The notes: a model not told the origin generated them from the sequence alone. A stretch of 43,975 bases of DNA from Candidatus Nomurabacteria bacterium (GCA_943357245.1 CALRGH010000003.1:1-43975); one strand, 5' to 3'. Counted from the first letter of the stretch, positions 4,428 through 41,720 are shown. A program made the numbers and translations.

Positions 4428-5288
4428 ATGTTAAAGAAGGAACAATTAAAAACAAGTGTGCAGAATATCGAGGAATTTTTAACAAAAACAGGTTTTATTC
4501 TTGAAATGGAAGTTGCAGAGCTTTTAGCAAAAAAAGGCTATAGTGTTGGGGTAAATAAATATTTTCATGATTATGATGAAGACAAAAATAGAGAGATTGA
4601 TATAATTGCAACAAAGAAAGTCGGAGAAGTTCTTTTAGTTTTAGTAATAGAGTGCAAGCAAAGTTTAATTGATGACTGGATTTTTATCTGTTCTGATAAG
4701 AGACCATCGCGATATTATCAGTATCTAAAACATACACCAGAAGCTATAGATAATAGTAAGACAAAGATATTTAATCACTTTTCTGTTTTAGATTATTCAT
4801 CGCAGTTGGCGCAGAATCACATTATCAGGGGTAAATCTAAGAAAAAATCAACCTCAATGCAGATTGACACATGTCTTGAAAAATTACCAAAGGCACTTGT
4901 TGATTTTGTTGATTCAAATAAAGAGATAAATGTCCGTAAAATTTATTTGCCCGTAGCTGTTTTTAGTGGCAACATTTTTACCGCTCAATATAGTAAAAAA
5001 TTACAGGTAAAAAATACGGAATGGGTTCAACATGAATCTTTTTTTGAATCTGAAAATTATTTACATCATTACGAGTCCAGTCTTTTTTTAATGAAGTCCC
5101 CTTATGAAATCTCGCCACCAGAAAAATCAAAACCCAATTCAGCAATAGCTCACACAAGCCAAAATATAGGATATAAATATTTGATTGATTTTACAACAAA
5201 GAAAGGTTTATCTAAATTAATATTAAGAGTTGAGGCCGATATTTCTAAAATAGATTTAACAAAGTGGCCGATTCAAGAGAAAAAATAA
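4428..5288 (+). CDS. Hypothetical protein with PD-(D/E)XK nuclease-like motif
   Basis: EVAELLAKKGYSV...REIDIIATKKVGEVLLVLVIECKQS; low-GC gene. Confidence 0.45.
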   Translation: MLKKEQLKTSVQNIEEFLTKTGFILEMEVAELLAKKGYSVGVNKYFHDYDEDKNREIDIIATKKVGEVLLVLVIECKQSLIDDWIFICSDKRPSRYYQYLKHTPEAIDNSKTKIFNHFSVLDYSSQLAQNHIIRGKSKKKSTSMQIDTCLEKLPKALVDFVDSNKEINVRKIYLPVAVFSGNIFTAQYSKKLQVKNTEWVQHESFFESENYLHHYESSLFLMKSPYEISPPEKSKPNSAIAHTSQNIGYKYLIDFTTKKGLSKLILRVEADISKIDLTKWPIQEKK

Positions 5289-18997: not shown

Positions 18998-19591
18998 ATG
19001 TCATTTCTTGATCCAACAACTATTCTCACTGCAACTGGTTACGTCGGTCTCTTTTTAGCAGTATTTGCAGAGACAGGACTTTTAATTGGGGTGATGCTCC
19101 CAGGAGATAGTTTATTATTCGTTGCTGGATTTTTGGCGTTCACAAGTAATTTACATATTGTGTGGGTGATCGTCATCGCTTTTACCGCTTCCGTGATTGG
19201 CGATAGTACGGGGTACATGATTGGTAGAAAATATGGTCCTGCGGTTTTTGCTCGAGAAGAATCTTTCTTTTTTAAAAAATCATATGTAGAGCGCGCACGA
19301 CTTTTTTATGAAAAACACGGCGCAAAAACCATTGTCCTTGCGCGATTTATGCCAATCATTCGCACATTCGCGCCATTATTTGCCGGTATCGGAGGAATGA
19401 AGTACTCGCTTTTCTTTTTTTACAATGTTGTTGGTGGTGCATTGTGGACACTCTCGATGTGTCTCTTTGGTTATTTTTTAGGAAAAACAGTACCAAATGC
19501 AGACGCGTATGTATTACCCATCGTGATTGGACTCATTATTGTCTCGATGCTTCCAGGAGTTATCAAGCTTATCATGAGTAGAAATAAATAA
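18998..19591 (+). CDS. DedA family membrane protein
   Basis: FAETGLLIGVMLPGDSLLFVAGFLA, IGDSTGYMIGRKYG, FYEKHGAKTIVLARFMPIIRTFAPLFAGIGGM. Confidence 0.9.
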   Translation: MSFLDPTTILTATGYVGLFLAVFAETGLLIGVMLPGDSLLFVAGFLAFTSNLHIVWVIVIAFTASVIGDSTGYMIGRKYGPAVFAREESFFFKKSYVERARLFYEKHGAKTIVLARFMPIIRTFAPLFAGIGGMKYSLFFFYNVVGGALWTLSMCLFGYFLGKTVPNADAYVLPIVIGLIIVSMLPGVIKLIMSRNK

Positions 19592-19649
19592 ACATCGATT
19601 TTTATTACTTGCTAGTACAATAAAGATGGTATACTTATCTTAATACATT

Positions 19650-20516
19650 ATGAAAAAAATTTTTGTAACAATTATTTTAGTCAGCACTTTTTTATCTACC
19701 CATATTGCTTTTGGAGCGGGTTCTATTTCGTTTATCGAACAACCGCTTTGGTTTTCAAGTGACACTTTTACGGAAGGGCAGACCGTTTCTATTTATACAG
19801 CACTTTTTAATCAAGAACCGAGTCATCTTACGGGGACTATTTCTTTTTATGATAGGTCTGTATTGTTGGGTGAAAAACAATTCACCATCAAACCTCGTAC
19901 CGTAGAAACTCTTTCGTTTGATTGGAAAGTAATTCCAGGGGAACATGTTATTTCTATCACTGTTGCAAAACTCTCTCGAATTAATGCGCAGGGAGTAAAA
20001 GAGTCAATTAGCAGTACCCCTATCACTATTGAAAGTAAGAAAATAACAGTTGGAAACACACCGACACAAACAGAGGTACAAGAAACACTTCCAACCACAG
20101 CAACAGAAGTACTTAATCAGGTAGACAATGCTCAAGAGAAAGCTGCCTCATTCATCCCCGCGCCTATTAGAAAAGTTGCTGAGGCTGTTTTTTCTGGTAT
20201 AGAAAAATTTAGAAGTGATACTGCGCTTGCGGTGAGTACAAATCGCAATACATTAAAATCTCAAATAATTGATCAAGAAATAAAAGAAGCTGCAGATAGT
20301 ACAGGAGATAATGCTATTGCTAAATATGAAGGCAATGTCGGTCAACACACCGTAGATGCAAAATCTGCGTTTTCAAAACCATTTGAACAGGTACGATTAT
20401 TTTTTCTCAATCTTGGGACAATGTTTTTCTCAAATAAATTTTTGTTTTATGGCATAAGCGCACTCTTTATCTATATGGGTATTCGAGCAATTGTCTTGTT
20501 TATTCGTTCAAGATAA
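19650..20516 (+). CDS. Exported protein with CARDB/Ig-like domain and C-terminal TM
   Basis: Signal peptide; FSSDTFTEGQTVSIYTALFNQEPSHLTGTISFYDRSVLLGEKQFTI; C-terminal hydrophobic helix. Confidence 0.65.
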   Translation: MKKIFVTIILVSTFLSTHIAFGAGSISFIEQPLWFSSDTFTEGQTVSIYTALFNQEPSHLTGTISFYDRSVLLGEKQFTIKPRTVETLSFDWKVIPGEHVISITVAKLSRINAQGVKESISSTPITIESKKITVGNTPTQTEVQETLPTTATEVLNQVDNAQEKAASFIPAPIRKVAEAVFSGIEKFRSDTALAVSTNRNTLKSQIIDQEIKEAADSTGDNAIAKYEGNVGQHTVDAKSAFSKPFEQVRLFFLNLGTMFFSNKFLFYGISALFIYMGIRAIVLFIRSR

Positions 20517-20517
20517 A

Positions 20518-20821
20518 CCTCCACACCAAACAACCTTAAGAATTATGTTCTCGCTGTATATTTTAAAAAGTTTAAAAGACGATAATTTGTACATTGGATC
20601 AACGAACGATTTGAAACGTAGATTGGGAGAACATAATTCAGGAAAAGTGGAATCAACTAGATTTAGGAGACCACTTAAACTCGTATACGCAGAAGCCTAT
20701 TCCGTTGAGGATGAGGCGAGGAAACGTGAACATAATCTTAAGTTGCGTGCAAAAGTGTGGAAACAACTTTCTCTTAGAATAAAGAAATCTCTCGCCTCAT
20801 AAGGTTGTTATGGTGTGGAGG
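20518..20821. repeat. Inverted repeat pair flanking a GIY-YIG gene
   Basis: 20518-20538 cctccacacca-a-acaacctta versus 20800-20821 taaggttgt-ta-tggtgtggagg; 20 paired bases with a 1/2-nt bulge. Confidence 0.85.
20545..20802 (+). CDS. GIY-YIG nuclease domain protein
   Basis: MFSLYILKSLKDDNLYIGSTNDLKRRLGEHNSGK; start moved from the track start 20491. Confidence 0.9.
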   Translation: MFSLYILKSLKDDNLYIGSTNDLKRRLGEHNSGKVESTRFRRPLKLVYAEAYSVEDEARKREHNLKLRAKVWKQLSLRIKKSLAS

Positions 20822-20862: not shown

Positions 20863-21126
20863 ATGGTATTACGAATCATCGCCACCATTTGTGTAATCGG
20901 CGCATTACTTCTTGCGCCTTATTGGTTATTTATTGCGCTACTTATACTCGCTTGCCTGCTTCTACCCCTGTATATCGAAGGAGCTATTATCGCACTTGTA
21001 CACGATGCTTTTTTTAGTGCAACAGACGGACAACTGTTTGGTTTCAGATCTCTTACCTTTTTAATTGCCGTCGTGAGTATTACGGTTGTGTATATAGTAC
21101 GTAGAACAGTGCGAAAACGAACATAA
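20863..21126 (+). CDS. Small membrane protein in the MreD position before PBP2
   Basis: 87 aa with 3 hydrophobic segments; TATAAT 6 nt before ATG; stop overlaps the start of PBP2. Confidence 0.6.
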   Translation: MVLRIIATICVIGALLLAPYWLFIALLILACLLLPLYIEGAIIALVHDAFFSATDGQLFGFRSLTFLIAVVSITVVYIVRRTVRKRT

Positions 21127-22853
21127 TGATACGATTCAGAAAAAAAAGGAGAATAAGAACAGATTTCGTTGAGCCTGACGAAATTTTTATTGATGCAAAA
21201 AATTTACCTGAATTTGACACACATCAATTTGAGGGTCGCATAGGACAATCGATTAGCAAAAAGACAATCATCACGCTCGGTATTATTTTTTTGATATTAG
21301 GAAGTGTTGGTGTTGGCAAATTAACGCTTTTGCAATTGGTACACGGACAAACCTATTTTGAAAAAAGTGAAAAGAATAGTCTTGATCAGAAACCAATTTT
21401 TGCAAATCGAGGCGTCTTTTATGATCGCAATGGATTGCAATTAGTAAAAAATGTATTTCCAGAAACACGGGCACTTTCGGTAGATGAGGGCATTCGTGCA
21501 TCAACAATGGAAGATGTGCCTAAACGTGATTACTATGATGCACCAGGATTTGCGCACGTGCTTGGCTATGTGAGTTATCCAAAACAGGACAACAATGGTG
21601 CGTATTGGCAAACAGAAGTAATTGGTAAAAGCGGTGCAGAGAAAGAATTTAATGACATGCTTGCAGGGAAAAACGGGAAGACACTTTTTGAACGTGATGC
21701 ACACGGTAACAGTATTTCAGAAAATCAGATTGATGCACCAGAAGATGGTAAAAATATTACCCTTTCTATCGATGCGCAACTGCAGGCAAAACTTTTTAGT
21801 GAGATGCAGTTATTTGCGGAAGCACATGATTTCTCTGGAGGTACAGGTATTATTATGAATGTAGAAAATGGGGAATTACTCGCACTGACAAATTATCCAG
21901 AATTTGATTCCGAAATCGTGTCTCTTGGGCATGATGCAACAAAAATAAAAGAATATCTGACTGATACTAGAACTCCATTTTTAAATCGTGCAATTGCAGG
22001 GCTCTACACACCAGGATCTATTGTGAAGCCATTTGTTGCTATGGGAGTGCTCGAAGAAAATATTATTGATCCGTACAGACAAATTCTCTCAACAGGACAG
22101 ATAGAAATTCCTAATCCGTACGATCCCGAATTGAAAACCATTTTCAAAGATAACAAAGCGCACGGACTTGTTGATTTGCGTCATGCTATTGCGGTGTCTT
22201 CAAACGTATATTTTTATGAAGTCGGAGGTGGCTATAAAGGGCAACAAGGACTCGGTATTGATCGGATTAATAAATATCTGACCCTTTTTGGGTTAGGTGA
22301 AAAAACAGGTACAGACATTGAAGGTGAAGCAGATGGTGTCATTCCAAATCCCGAGTGGAAAGCAAAACGATTTAATGGTGACATATGGCGTATTGGTGAT
22401 ACGTATAACACCGCAATTGGTCAGTATGGAGTGACGGTGACACCGCTTTCTATGGTGCGTGCAGTCGGAGCAATTGCAAATAACGGCACATTACTTACGC
22501 CAGTGATTCAAAAGGAGACAAAAGGAAAAGTTGAAACATTACCGTTTGAGTCTGAGAATTTCAACATAATCCACGAAGCAATGCGTTTGTGTGTGACTGA
22601 CGGCACGGGACAAACATTGAATACTCGTGATGTCGAGGTCGCAGTAAAAACAGGAACCGCGCAAGTTGGTATTTCAAAAAATTTACTTAACTCTTGGAGT
22701 ATGGGATTTTTCCCGTATGAAAATCCGAAGTACGCATTTATTATCATGATGGAACGTGGACCAAAAGAAAATCAGACGGGTTCATCTATTGTGATGCGTC
22801 ATGTGCTTGATTGGATGGCAGTGGAGGCGCCGGAATATTTAAAGAGCGAGTAA
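21126..22853 (+). CDS. mrdA: Penicillin-binding protein 2
   Basis: RGVFYDRNGLQLVKN, PGFAHVLGYVSYP, YTPGSIVKPFVAMGVLEE, SSNVYFYEVGGGY, VKTGTAQVG. Confidence 0.9.
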   Translation: MIRFRKKRRIRTDFVEPDEIFIDAKNLPEFDTHQFEGRIGQSISKKTIITLGIIFLILGSVGVGKLTLLQLVHGQTYFEKSEKNSLDQKPIFANRGVFYDRNGLQLVKNVFPETRALSVDEGIRASTMEDVPKRDYYDAPGFAHVLGYVSYPKQDNNGAYWQTEVIGKSGAEKEFNDMLAGKNGKTLFERDAHGNSISENQIDAPEDGKNITLSIDAQLQAKLFSEMQLFAEAHDFSGGTGIIMNVENGELLALTNYPEFDSEIVSLGHDATKIKEYLTDTRTPFLNRAIAGLYTPGSIVKPFVAMGVLEENIIDPYRQILSTGQIEIPNPYDPELKTIFKDNKAHGLVDLRHAIAVSSNVYFYEVGGGYKGQQGLGIDRINKYLTLFGLGEKTGTDIEGEADGVIPNPEWKAKRFNGDIWRIGDTYNTAIGQYGVTVTPLSMVRAVGAIANNGTLLTPVIQKETKGKVETLPFESENFNIIHEAMRLCVTDGTGQTLNTRDVEVAVKTGTAQVGISKNLLNSWSMGFFPYENPKYAFIIMMERGPKENQTGSSIVMRHVLDWMAVEAPEYLKSE

Positions 22854-22888
22854 GTAGATAGTAGTAAATAGTAAATAGGTTCGAACAG
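22851..22888. repeat. Stop-codon-rich repeat, copy 1, starting at the mrdA stop codon
   Basis: taagtagatagtagtaaatagtaaatag-gttcgaacag; first 3 nt are the TAA of the ORF ending at 22853. Confidence 0.9.
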
Positions 22889-22978
22889 AAAACTGTCTCA
22901 GTGTGTCATCCCGGCGGAGGCCGGGAACCAGGCTGTTTTTGTTTGATTTTTATTATCTTTTTTGCTAAAGTACGATTA

Positions 22979-23446
22979 ATGCAAACGACATCAGAATTTA
23001 TATCAAGTGAGCGCCGTATTGAACTTGAAAAAGAGCTCAAAGAACTCCAAACAGTACAACGAAAATCAGTTATCGAAAAACTCGAATTCGCTAAGTCACT
23101 TGGCGACCTTTCAGAAAATGCGGAATATCACAGCGCGCGCGAAGAGCAGGCGCGTCTTGAAGAGCGCATCGCAAAAATAGAATATGTTTTAAAAACATCA
23201 AAAGTGATGGAACGACATTCAAGTTCCACTGTCGAAATCGGTTCGACAATAGTGATTAAAAAAGAAGGTTCGAGTGATCCCCTGAAAGTGTCTGTCGTTG
23301 GGACAGAAGAAACAGACATGCTAAAGGGTTACATCTCGCACCGATCTCCACTCGGTGCGGCTCTTTTAGGAAAGAACAAAGGCGATACAGTGAAAGTAAA
23401 TACACCAAAAGGAGCGATAGGGTATACGATAATTAGCATAGAGTAG
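22979..23446 (+). CDS. greA: Transcription elongation factor GreA
   Basis: ELEKELKELQ...AKSLGDLSENAEYHSAREEQARLEERI...SHRSPLGAALLGKNKGDTVKVNTPKGAIGYTIISI; start set to ATG 22979. Confidence 0.9.
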   Translation: MQTTSEFISSERRIELEKELKELQTVQRKSVIEKLEFAKSLGDLSENAEYHSAREEQARLEERIAKIEYVLKTSKVMERHSSSTVEIGSTIVIKKEGSSDPLKVSVVGTEETDMLKGYISHRSPLGAALLGKNKGDTVKVNTPKGAIGYTIISIE

Positions 23447-23458
23447 GGTTTAGAAAAC

Positions 23459-23495
23459 ACAAAAGTGAGGCAAACTTTGTTTGCCTCACTTTTGT
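23459..23495. repeat. Perfect hairpin 3' of greA (17-bp arms, loop TTT)
   Basis: acaaaagtgaggcaaac-ttt-gtttgcctcacttttgt, followed by cattccgga. Confidence 0.9.
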
Positions 23496-23550
23496 CATTC
23501 CGGACAAGCTTGTCGCCGTTCACTCTTCACTGTATACTTATCACTATTAT

Positions 23551-25032
23551 ATGGCCTCATTAGAAGAAATGCGCGCAGAGCGCTTGAAGAAATTAGCATT
23601 ATTAAAAACCGCTGGCATGGATGCATATCCTGCATCTATTTCGCGCGATATGAGCATTGCGGATGCAATTGCGCAGTTTGATACACTAGTTGATACTGAC
23701 AAGCAAATCTCGCTCGCAGGACGCGTGATGTCTATTCGCGGGCAAGGTGCGATTTTATTTGCAAACCTTTTTGATGGCACCGGCACTTTCCAGCTCTTTT
23801 TGAAAAAAGATGGCATGCCAGAAGATATCTTCGCCCTTTTTGTAAATACGGTAGACATGGGCGATTTTATTTCTGCCACAGGAACCTTCATCACGAGTAA
23901 AACTGGAGAGAAAACACTTCTTGTTTCCGGTTGGTCCATGGCATCAAAATCACTCCTTCCATTACCAGAAAAGTGGGCAGGACTTTCAGATGAAGATGAA
24001 CGGCTTCGCAAACGATACTTGGATGCTATTGGCAATCCAGAACTCTTTGCACGATTCCACAGTAGAGCAAACATCATCAAATATATCCGTGCATTTTTTG
24101 ATGCAAAAGGGTTTATGGAAATTGAAACACCTATTCTCCAAAATCAAGCTGGTGGTGCGATGGCAAAGACATTCAATACCCATCACAATGATTACGATAT
24201 GGACATGGTACTCCGCATCGCAATGGAGCTTGAGCACAAGATGATGATGGTTGCGGGCTATAATCGCATTTATGAAATCGGCAAAAATTTCCGCAATGAA
24301 GGCTCTGATCCAACACACATCCAAGAATTTACGATGATGGAATGGTATGCCGCGTATGAGACACTTGAGACGAATATAAAGTGGACCGAAGAATTACTCA
24401 AAGGACTCGCAAAAGACGTCATAGGGAAAATGTCTTTTATGATTGCAGGGGAAGATGGCGAAAAAGTCGAAGTGAATTTCGATGGCGTGTGGCCACGCGT
24501 TCGATTTGGTGATTTGCTCAAAGAAAATGCAAATCTTGATATGCAATCTGCAAGTGTGGATGATATCAAAGAATCAGCAAAAAAGTGGGGTATGGATGCC
24601 AAAGAAATCGCAACGACAGGTCGTGCGAATTTGCTCGACTTTATTTATAAAAAATCTTCTCGCAACAAAATAGTCCAACCGACATTTGTCATGGATTATC
24701 CCGGAGAATTAAAACCGCTCGCACAGCAAAATTCGGATGGTACTGCCTGCGTCGCACAGCTCATAATCTGCGGCGCAGAAATCACAAACCAATACGCAGA
24801 GCTTGTAAATCCAATTGTCGAACGCGAACTCTTCGAATCCCAAGCAAAAGCAAAAGCAGATGGAGACGCAGAAGCTATGGGTATGGATGAACGATTCCTT
24901 ACAGCAATGGAGCACGGTATGCCGCCAATGACTGGTTTTGGTCTTGGTATTGATCGTCTCGTTGCACTTCTTACCGAACAAGACAATCTCCGCGAAGTGA
25001 TTTTCTTCCCGATAATGAGACCAAAACAGTAA
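23551..25032 (+). CDS. lysS: Lysyl-tRNA synthetase, class II
   Basis: MSIRGQGAILFANLFDGTGTFQLFLKKD, RKRYLDAI, FMEIETPILQNQAGGAMAKTF, RIYEIGKNFRNEGSDPTHIQEFTMMEWYAAY, GFGLGIDRLVALLT. Confidence 0.95.
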   Translation: MASLEEMRAERLKKLALLKTAGMDAYPASISRDMSIADAIAQFDTLVDTDKQISLAGRVMSIRGQGAILFANLFDGTGTFQLFLKKDGMPEDIFALFVNTVDMGDFISATGTFITSKTGEKTLLVSGWSMASKSLLPLPEKWAGLSDEDERLRKRYLDAIGNPELFARFHSRANIIKYIRAFFDAKGFMEIETPILQNQAGGAMAKTFNTHHNDYDMDMVLRIAMELEHKMMMVAGYNRIYEIGKNFRNEGSDPTHIQEFTMMEWYAAYETLETNIKWTEELLKGLAKDVIGKMSFMIAGEDGEKVEVNFDGVWPRVRFGDLLKENANLDMQSASVDDIKESAKKWGMDAKEIATTGRANLLDFIYKKSSRNKIVQPTFVMDYPGELKPLAQQNSDGTACVAQLIICGAEITNQYAELVNPIVERELFESQAKAKADGDAEAMGMDERFLTAMEHGMPPMTGFGLGIDRLVALLTEQDNLREVIFFPIMRPKQ

Positions 25033-25066
25033 GTAGATAGTAGTAAATAGTAAATAGATTCGAACA
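25030..25066. repeat. Stop-codon-rich repeat, copy 2, starting at the lysS stop codon
   Basis: taagtagatagtagtaaatagtaaatag-attcgaaca. Confidence 0.9.
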
Positions 25067-25069
25067 AAG

Positions 25070-25108
25070 CACAGAGCGGGAGAAAGCGAAGCTTTCTCCC
25101 GCTCTGTG
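25070..25108. repeat. Perfect hairpin 3' of lysS (18-bp arms, loop GAA)
   Basis: cacagagcgggagaaagc-gaa-gctttctcccgctctgtg. Confidence 0.95.
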
Positions 25109-25206
25109 TCATTCCGGACGCAGCGATAGCGGAGATCCGGAATCCATCGCGAATGAGCGAAGCAATGGATCCCCGGTTCTATCTGCGACAGATAGCCCGA
25201 GGATGA
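25107..25206. repeat. Compound palindromic element (GTCATTCCGGA...CCGAGGATGAC class)
   Basis: attccgga...tccggaat, ccatcgc...caatgg, ctatctg-cga-cagatag sub-hairpins between gtcattcc and ggatgac. Confidence 0.7.
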
Positions 25207-25259: not shown

Positions 25260-25631
25260 TTAGTCTGCAATTTCAAATTCTTGGTTTGTAGCAAAATAGA
25301 AAGTAGGATGAAGTCCTTCTTCGAACTTCTTATTTGGATGAAATTCATAACGAGGAAGCCTTTCTCCTGTATTAAAAATAACATCCACAGTATCAAATCC
25401 AAAATTAGATACTGACCCATGTTGAAGTTTCATTTTTACAGTCTCGCCATTTCTAGGCATTTCTAAGAAATGAAGAGTTGGTCCATTTTCATTACCAATC
25501 CCAACAGGACACATAGTTGTTTTCGCACAGAGTGCAATAGTATCAATTTTTATTTTTATTTGTGGCATAACAAATGTTTTCTTCACTATACTCATTCTTT
25601 TGTACCTGTCAAATATTTTAGAACCTAACAA
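25260..25631 (-). CDS. Hypothetical protein
   Basis: 123-aa ORF (alternative start at 25595); discrete gene ending next to a terminator. Confidence 0.5.
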   Translation of the reverse strand: MLGSKIFDRYKRMSIVKKTFVMPQIKIKIDTIALCAKTTMCPVGIGNENGPTLHFLEMPRNGETVKMKLQHGSVSNFGFDTVDVIFNTGERLPRYEFHPNKKFEEGLHPTFYFATNQEFEIAD

Positions 25632-25701
25632 CTAGAAACTAGAACCTTGCTCTGCTATACTTGTCTTGTCTCTACTTACTACTAACTATTTACTACTTAC
25701 T

Positions 25702-26112
25702 ATGTTGTTACAAATCATCATCGCTGTTATTGTCTCTATGATCCTTGGTTTTATTTGGTACGGACCGCTTTTTGGAAAAGTGTGGGGTAAAATTGTGGGA
25801 GTTGATATGGAGACTGCGAAAAATGATCCAGAAGTGAAAAAGCGTATGCCGTTAATGGCTGCAACTAATATGGCGCTTTCACTTGTTACTATTTTTATGC
25901 TCGCGGTTATTTTCAAACGACTTGACGTTACTGATGTGACAACAGGTGTTCGTGTCGCATTTTTTCTCTTCGTTGGTTTTATTTTTCCTCTCATAGGTAC
26001 GTTTGCTCTTTGGAGTAGTAAATCGCGCCGTCTCGCATGGGAAATGTTTTTCGTGATGATGGGCTATCAGCTTATTATGTTTGTATTTTACGGGATTATT
26101 CTTTCGTTTTAA
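25702..26112 (+). CDS. DUF1761-like membrane protein
   Basis: IIIAVIVSMILGFIWYGPLFGKVWGKIVGVD, four hydrophobic segments; start set to 25702. Confidence 0.75.
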   Translation: MLLQIIIAVIVSMILGFIWYGPLFGKVWGKIVGVDMETAKNDPEVKKRMPLMAATNMALSLVTIFMLAVIFKRLDVTDVTTGVRVAFFLFVGFIFPLIGTFALWSSKSRRLAWEMFFVMMGYQLIMFVFYGIILSF

Positions 26113-26387
26113 GGAAACAAAAGAAAGGGTATAGGATTTAGCGTCTAGGGTATAGAAACAATCTACCGCGGAAGGATTCTAAAGCCTTGCGCAGTGCGGC
26201 GGCACGAGCAGAGCAATTTTTCAGCAGAAAAATATGCGTGCTTTAAAATCCTTTCGCAAAAACCTTTTTTTGGTTACTTTTTCGCGGAGAAAAAGTGACA
26301 AGACTACTTTTTTTGACAAAAAGTCATTTTTGACTCCGAATTATAGAAGCGTTTCCACCGCCAGTGCTACAGTGCTATACTCTCGAC

Positions 26388-38140: not shown

Positions 38141-38185
38141 TTCTGTATTCCTACTTACTACTATCTACTAACTACTTACTAATTT

Positions 38186-41195: not shown

Positions 41196-41720
41196 TTATT
41201 TCCCAAAAAGTTCAAACAAAACCTTTTTTGTTTCTTCGTCGAGAGTATCCGTCACAATGATCATCAATTCTGTTGAAAGATTGAGATCTTTTTTAATATT
41301 TATGAAGAGGTGTTCGAAAGGGTAAGGAGAAATCCAGGCGGAATTCTTAAGACAGACAAATCCAGCTTTTTTGAGGAGGTAGCGGAGGGATTCGCGTTCG
41401 TTTTTGCGAGACTCGGGAAGATCAAGGAGAATGATGCGCCATTTGCCGTCCCAGTTTGGGGAAACCAAAGAGCTTCTAGCTTCTAGCTTATAGCTGGTAG
41501 CTTTAGCCCGACCTGACTTAGTAAGGCGAGCGTAGTCGTTCTGGCCCGAATGGACATGTTCTACCAATCCAGCCTCGCGGAGGCCTTTTAATGAGCGGGT
41601 GAGGGCATAATTTGCCTTCTGTGAGCCTTTTTCACCCACTTTGCCTGTAAGTTCGGGCAAAGAAACAGCCGGCTTTTCGGCTAGTATTTTAAGGATTTTT
41701 TTGGAGTAGTCGGACTTCAT
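41196..41720 (-). CDS. Winged-helix protein with PaaX/Cas2-like C-terminal domain
   Basis: wHTH (SKKILKILAEKPAVSLPELTGKV..ALTRSLKGLREAGLVE) followed by WDGKWRIILLDLPESRKNERESLRYLLKKAGFVCLKNSAWISPYPFE. Confidence 0.7.
   Translation of the reverse strand: MKSDYSKKILKILAEKPAVSLPELTGKVGEKGSQKANYALTRSLKGLREAGLVEHVHSGQNDYARLTKSGRAKATSYKLEARSSLVSPNWDGKWRIILLDLPESRKNERESLRYLLKKAGFVCLKNSAWISPYPFEHLFINIKKDLNLSTELMIIVTDTLDEETKKVLFELFGK

Follow-up and report, generated by a model that had tools for sequence, protein, structure and literature searches.

Heptad-phased TAG arrays at the starts and ends of genes in a Candidatus Nomurabacteria genome and other Patescibacteria

A 43,975-nt stretch of DNA from Candidatus Nomurabacteria bacterium (GCA_943357245.1, CALRGH010000003.1:1-43975), hereafter the window, carries a stop-codon-rich repeat at the ends of two genes. 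The 28-nt sequence TAAGTAGATAGTAGTAAATAGTAAATAG occurs on the plus strand at 22851-22878 and at 25030-25057 with 0 mismatches (shuffles of the sequence expect 0.00), and the TAA that opens each copy is the stop codon of an mrdA-like open reading frame (ORF; 21126-22853), whose product has penicillin-binding protein dimerisation and transpeptidase domains, or of lysS (23551-25032). An earlier note, made from the sequence alone, had let the repeat open with the stops of mrdA (22851) and lysS (25030) and had described the shared stretch as continuing with G or A followed by TTCGAACA. The placement was confirmed as exact, and the continuation was found at both copies. The heptad register itself opens three bases before the stop, with the last sense codon (GAG or CAG) in the place of TAG. 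Two further copies of the same family lie in the window in the opposite orientation, touching the start codons of a DUF1761 gene and of rplQ; these had been missed, as had three arrays with other fillers (Table 1).

The repeat is a member of a heptamer family of the form (TAGNWAR)3-6 TAG. In its own genome (G000; 564 kb, 33 contigs), a search for the original string that allowed 3 mismatches gave 15 matches, far more than chance would give, and the reversed, non-complemented control gave 0. Looser patterns gave 46 to 67 overlapping matches, which resolved into 39 arrays in the stretches examined, with none in the reversed controls. The congeneric genome G001 holds a similar number, about 40 in each. 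The units run head to tail with a period of 7 nt only, and the arrays are mostly intergenic and patchy among relatives, as heptanucleotide repeats are.

Arrays were assigned to gene edges in two counts, both made in these two genomes. In the first, codon statistics were used to choose between readings, and 40 of 78 arrays were found at start codons and 26 of 78 at stop codons. The stricter count took the 72 TAGNWAR arrays lying away from contig ends and accepted a coding edge within about 10 nt. Of the 72, 55 had a coding edge where the TAG strand begins (5′; 36 starts and 19 stops), and only 8 had one near its 3′ end. The orientation bias that the earlier note had proposed to check is thus strong: the edge lay only on the left (5′ of the TAG strand) in 48 arrays and only on the right in 1 (sign test, p = 2e-13). 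What does not vary is that the TAG strand points its 5′ end at the edge of a coding sequence, whether start or stop. Measured against the refuting condition of the earlier note, copies scattered with no link to stop codons, the outcome is intermediate: copies are not scattered, and placement at stop codons is exact where it occurs, but the rule extends to gene edges of both kinds, and starts are about twice as frequent as stops.

At starts, the TAG strand is antisense to the gene and the leader reads CTACTTACTA-4 nt-ATG or, for example, CTACTTACTACTATCTACTAACTACTTACTA-NNNN-ATG. The 36 start-side arrays lie 0-8 nt from the start codon with a mode of 4 nt, and the spacer to ATG is exactly 4 nt in 18 of them (p = 3e-10 versus uniform 0-10). 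The nearest in-frame start codons were used, a choice that biases toward short distances; the sharp 4-nt mode and the contrast between left and right go beyond what it explains. The start calls are credible because orthologs align from Met1, at 100% for rplQ and 93-95% for rpsJ-like and rpmH-like proteins (these names, and YebC-like below, were recognised by eye from the protein sequence). A -10-like hexamer (TATACT, TATAAT or TATAGT) was often seen by eye about 10-25 nt upstream of start-side arrays. Stop-side arrays have TAG on the sense strand, and a TAG or TAA of the array serves as the stop codon, or else the stop lies no more than about 10 bases before the array; in all 19 cases it is in or beside the first unit. 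A tail such as GGAGAACAAAA or TTCGAACA comes next, often followed by a terminator-like hairpin. For 22 arrays outside the TAGNWAR family the edge rule is weaker (10 only-left versus 1 only-right, p = 0.01), and several of these lie 14-25 nt from the start.

A search for period 7 that presupposed no sequence recovered more families at the same gene edges, among them TAGCARG, TAGGGTT/TAGCGTC and TAGCTTW. Common to all is a TAG every 7 nt on the strand leaving the gene, with variable filler. With four TAGs as the minimum, 584 kb holds 89 arrays at period 7, compared with 0 at periods 4-6 or 8-13 and 3 at period 14; 18 arrays fall outside the TAGNWAR family. Among all 64 trinucleotides, TAG/CTA ranks first at period 7 in the same 584 kb. 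TAA at period 7 gave 0 arrays even though the commonest unit contains TAA, so the retention of TAG is position-specific and goes beyond homogenised copies. A search seeded on self-similarity returned 129 regions at period 7, versus 8-19 at periods 5, 8, 10 and 11 and 47-56 at periods 6 and 9, which are multiples of the codon length, and CTA/TAG was the most conserved triplet in 76 of the 129. The repeat AAAGTTATAAAGTCAT, from the period-7 list, proved on reading to have a period of 8 and was excluded. About 18% of genes had period-7 edges, a figure that is too high because the sample consisted of stretches around arrays plus further G001 stretches. TAG-free heptad families were also seen at gene edges, of TTAATTC and AATTGAA types in genome G338 and TTAAAAT types in G268; heptad-built gene edges are thus wider than the TAG grammar.

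Table 1. Arrays and adjoining features in the window
Feature	Position	Strand	Details
Stop-side array, mrdA-like gene	22848..22878	+	GAGTAAG TAGATAG TAGTAAA TAGTAAA TAG; stop TAA 22851-22853 inside first unit
Shared tail GTTCGAACA, 3′ of mrdA-like array	22879..22887	+	Followed by GC-rich hairpin and T run
Stop-side array, lysS	25027..25057	+	CAGTAAG TAGATAG TAGTAAA TAGTAAA TAG; stop TAA 25030-25032 inside first unit
Shared tail ATTCGAACA, 3′ of lysS array	25058..25066	+	
Strong hairpin after lysS array	25070..25108	+	Scores as terminator-like on minus strand, where the T run is TTTG
Other-filler array, farther upstream of DUF1761 gene	25625..25648	-	AAGGTTC TAGTTTC TAGTTGT TAG
Start-side array, DUF1761 gene	25672..25702	-	TAG strand antisense to gene; final base is the A of ATG at 25702
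TAGGGTT-like family array	26125..26155	+	AAGGGTA TAGGATT TAGCGTC TAGGGTA TAG; 12 nt past stop of DUF1761 gene
Start-side array, rplQ (between rpoA and rplQ)	38151..38181	-	Ends 4 nt before ATG 38186; TAG strand antisense
TAGCTTW-like family array	41470..41500	+	Adjoining gene boundary uncertain

Each heptad holds a stop codon and 7 equals 1 modulo 3, so stops fall in all three frames within three units, as the array sequences themselves show; the claim of stops in more than one frame holds in full. An intrinsic terminator was considered and rejected, as the array itself forms no terminator-like stem: the lysS array is unpaired, with its hairpin downstream, and half of the mrdA array pairs only with a distal T-rich stretch. 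Upstream of the DUF1761 gene, the array starts at 25672, shortly after a promoter-like TATACT whose last base is 25661, and would thus make up essentially the whole leader. The array between rpoA and rplQ sits between two genes of one likely operon. A scan of the window against Rfam returned tRNA only and no other RNA family.

Between G000 and G001, heptads have been gained, lost or exchanged at orthologous sites, with the position at the gene edge retained. Where arrays are kept, G001 has an extra unit at the mrdA end, the fillers of the rpmH-like leader differ, and the YebC-like leader shows a single change. An array is present in one congener and absent from the other at the lysS end and at the rplQ, rpsJ-like and DUF1761 starts, and at two gene ends the filler family is swapped at the same edge (TAGTAAG in G001, TAGCAAG in G000). 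An mrdA-like protein 88% identical to that of the window is encoded on CALRCO010000006.1 (Candidatus Nomurabacteria bacterium RH-23may17-429). Transposition, or a mobile or palindromic repeat such as a repetitive extragenic palindrome (REP) or a miniature inverted-repeat transposable element (MITE), was rejected on the same comparison, since ortholog sites differ by units, filler and flanks and no clean empty site was seen, target duplications not having been searched for systematically.

More widely, TAGNWAR arrays are patchy. Within the genome's own family 14 of 60 relatives match, some genera having dozens and most none. At the level of the order, (TAGNWAR)3TAG occurs in 34 of 397 genomes, with other dense spots in other families, and at the level of the phylum (TAGN4)4TAG occurs in 133 of 380 Patescibacteria genomes. 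Note that the reversed control was nonzero in about 74 genomes of the (TAGN4)4TAG survey, counted by hand; part of the reason is that some arrays, TAGTGAT and TAGATTG among them, hold the reversed motif in phase. The edge rule recurs in other genera, families and classes and elsewhere in the phylum, and some arrays there could not be assigned. In IMG/VR the pattern matched two contigs only, and a virus origin was rejected. The viral-classed contig IMGVR_UViG_3300028553_002684 carries, at about 4930-4995, a long (TAGTNAG)n array near the end of an ORF, followed by a second period-7 array (ATTTTAC-like).

The arrays occur in a host whose genes show no excess of Shine-Dalgarno (SD) sequences. SD runs of at least 5 were found at 2.1% at -20 to -4 versus 3.3% farther upstream, and ordinary leaders are depleted in G at -12 to -1; with no SD excess upstream of genes, the idea that the array is an SD in another form was rejected. 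The anti-SD, CCTCC, is missing from the 16S rRNA 3′ end after helix 45, both in G000 and in 12 of its relatives within the order. The tail is GTGGAATCATTCAAT in G000 (contig C7, about 19400-19480, minus strand) and mostly GTGGAATAATTCAAT in the relatives, the usual form being TGGATCACCTCC. Most bacteria of the candidate phyla radiation (CPR) have lost Era, which binds GAUCACCUCC (review, PMC10582724). The CTA strand of the TAGNWAR family is G-free and nearly unfolded, and array leaders are the least folded (mean -1.30 versus -4.42 kcal/mol for other genes); such open leaders fit use without an SD. Ribosomal protein S21, searched for as a correlate of SD loss, gave sub-threshold matches only in G000 and G001, which were not interpreted. 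On the minus strand of G000 C7, at about 19500-20560, an intron-like insert of some 1 kb splits the 16S gene near its position 1400; it contains an ORF that by eye resembles a LAGLIDADG homing endonuclease.

In bacteria with few or no SD sequences, leaders before ATG are G-poor and unstructured. Such SD-independent leaders are not known to be repeated in tandem or to recur inverted at gene ends. The arrays resemble them in placing G-poor, open sequence before ATG in a host where the anti-SD is absent, and differ in being tandemly repeated and in appearing inverted at gene ends. Heptanucleotide repeats are also familiar as the short tandemly repeated repetitive (STRR) sequences of cyanobacteria. 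With these and with long simple sequence repeats (LSSR; Mrazek et al. 2007, as cited in PMC4679880) the arrays share a period of 7, several families per genome, a largely intergenic location and a scattered phylogenetic distribution; they differ in having one conserved triplet with free filler, and neither a lock to gene edges nor a polarity of this kind was found in the literature covered.

The closest known system is that of the TAACTGA heptamer direct repeats of marine Beggiatoaceae, also found in some Cyanobacteria and Bacteroidetes (MacGregor 2015, PMC4679880). There, 169 sets of two to six heptamers lie mostly a few nucleotides from start codons, where the ribosome-binding site (RBS) would be; 132 of 170 sets point toward an RBS-less start codon, and a role in translational regulation has been proposed (PMC4679880). 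Both systems have short sets of a stop-containing 7-nt unit that are intergenic, lie a few nucleotides before starts, are patchy and follow no functional gene class. The unit here is TAGNWAR or, more generally, TAGNNNN with variable filler, whereas TAACTGA is a fixed heptamer; the stop-rich strand at starts is antisense here and sense in TAACTGA; and the regular inverted use at stop codons is new. The host belongs to another phylum and lacks the anti-SD. We class the arrays as a variant of heptamer repeats outside the TAACTGA family. A literature search that reached few subscription papers found nothing on heptamers, or on tandem repeats between genes, in Patescibacteria or Parcubacteria, and the gene-boundary TAG pattern appears to be undescribed in Patescibacteria.

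The explanation that we favour, though only tentatively and from sequence comparison, is that the arrays serve as an untranslated gene edge, providing an open leader for SD-independent initiation at starts and a stop-dense trailer at ends. Heptad-phased arrays, (TAGNNNN)3-6, would form this edge in many Patescibacteria. At stops, a TAG or TAA of the array is the stop codon or lies close behind it, with more stops following in three frames and often a terminator-like hairpin next. At starts, the complementary CTA strand makes up the last 30 nt or so of the leader, mostly ending 4 nt before ATG. Heptads may arise and change in length through slippage or copying of whole units, and arrays may persist since they suit both edges, being G-free and free of start codons as an open leader and dense in stops as a trailer. 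If selection acted on the role of each strand, the orientation rule would follow. Beyond the observed anatomy, position, polarity, phasing, turnover and SD-less context, we infer that initiation benefits from the leader, that the additional stops are of consequence and that the units come about by slippage.

Several observations weigh against the untranslated-edge explanation. TAG is kept at starts too, where it is antisense and unable to act as a stop, and the stop-side orientation is kept even where the natural stop precedes the array. Families with G-containing filler are also found at starts, in a few cases the TAG strand lies directly before the ATG of the next gene, and the low folding of array leaders is largely due to base composition. 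The arrays occur in a minority of genes, and in none in most relatives, so they are not required for initiation or termination. How ribosomes without an SD find start codons is a question on which the arrays bear. The motif, present in about one third of the sampled genomes of the phylum and absent in close relatives, supplies natural pairs of genes with and without it for the study of both initiation and termination, and it is a case of a repeat that conserves position and phase relative to genes rather than its full sequence.

The turnover and patchiness of the arrays could also be accounted for by neutral or selfish slippage of heptanucleotides in intergenic DNA, with repeats purged from coding sequence, promoters and terminators and left without function in untranslated regions. 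In many bacterial genomes rich in repeats the most frequent class is that of heptamers, for which polymerase slippage has been proposed, according to the citation of Mrazek et al. 2007 in PMC4679880; whole-unit differences between congeners, as at the mrdA end, and the array-free state of most relatives are as slippage would have it. It makes no prediction of the polarity (48 versus 1), of the 4-nt mode before ATG or of TAG retention amid variable filler, and we regard it as a serious rival, if a somewhat less likely one.

The antisense TAG at starts and the fixed orientation at stops, which the untranslated-edge account does not explain, make a motif-reading factor conceivable. A putative nucleic-acid-binding protein may read TAG/CTA at 7-nt steps, in DNA or RNA, and so mark or regulate gene boundaries. 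A multivalent binding site would look much like this, with a directional triplet recurring at a fixed step and the filler free to vary, and a reader at the DNA level would be the simplest account of an identical DNA sequence oriented outward at both kinds of edge. Operon-internal copies, as between rpoA and rplQ, count against a purely transcriptional role, however, and the neighbouring genes have no obvious common function, so that we consider such binding sites unlikely. A broader proposal is to our mind just as improbable: Patescibacteria would use TAG at 7-base steps, a single directional motif at either edge of a gene, as a code for gene boundaries that helps to define where translation starts and stops, and the code would be read by a dedicated factor or by the SD-less ribosomes.

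Pairing between arrays is very unlikely to be their purpose. Stop-side and start-side arrays of one intergenic region might form RNA hairpins that couple or shield translation, and 26 inverted pairs do lie each within one intergenic region, with gaps mostly of 11-36 nt. Complementarity, however, was 0.836 within pairs versus 0.813 between pairs (permutation p = 0.12), which does not support pairing, and many arrays have no nearby partner. Some inverted pairs fill whole short intergenic regions (G000 C2:2314-2390, G001 C50:1609-1689 and loci in genome G028), with gaps of about 12-31 nt and often a palindromic centre such as GAATGCATTC.

Least probable of all is the reading of the earlier note, insertion of an element at stop codons or a barrier to readthrough and nothing else: 19 of the 55 assigned arrays are placed exactly at stops and have stops in all three frames, but stop codons are not the main location, the majority at starts (36 of 55) has the other orientation and carries the stop-rich strand antisense, so that a readthrough barrier alone cannot explain the arrays, and orthologous sites, which vary in filler and copy number, offer no clean insertion or empty site.

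A second class of repeat was seen beside the arrays, consisting of interspersed palindromes of GTCATCCCGGCGGAGGCCGGGAACCAGG and GTCATTCCGGACAAGCTTGTCCG types (window positions 22904-22935, 23495-23520 and 25108-25200).

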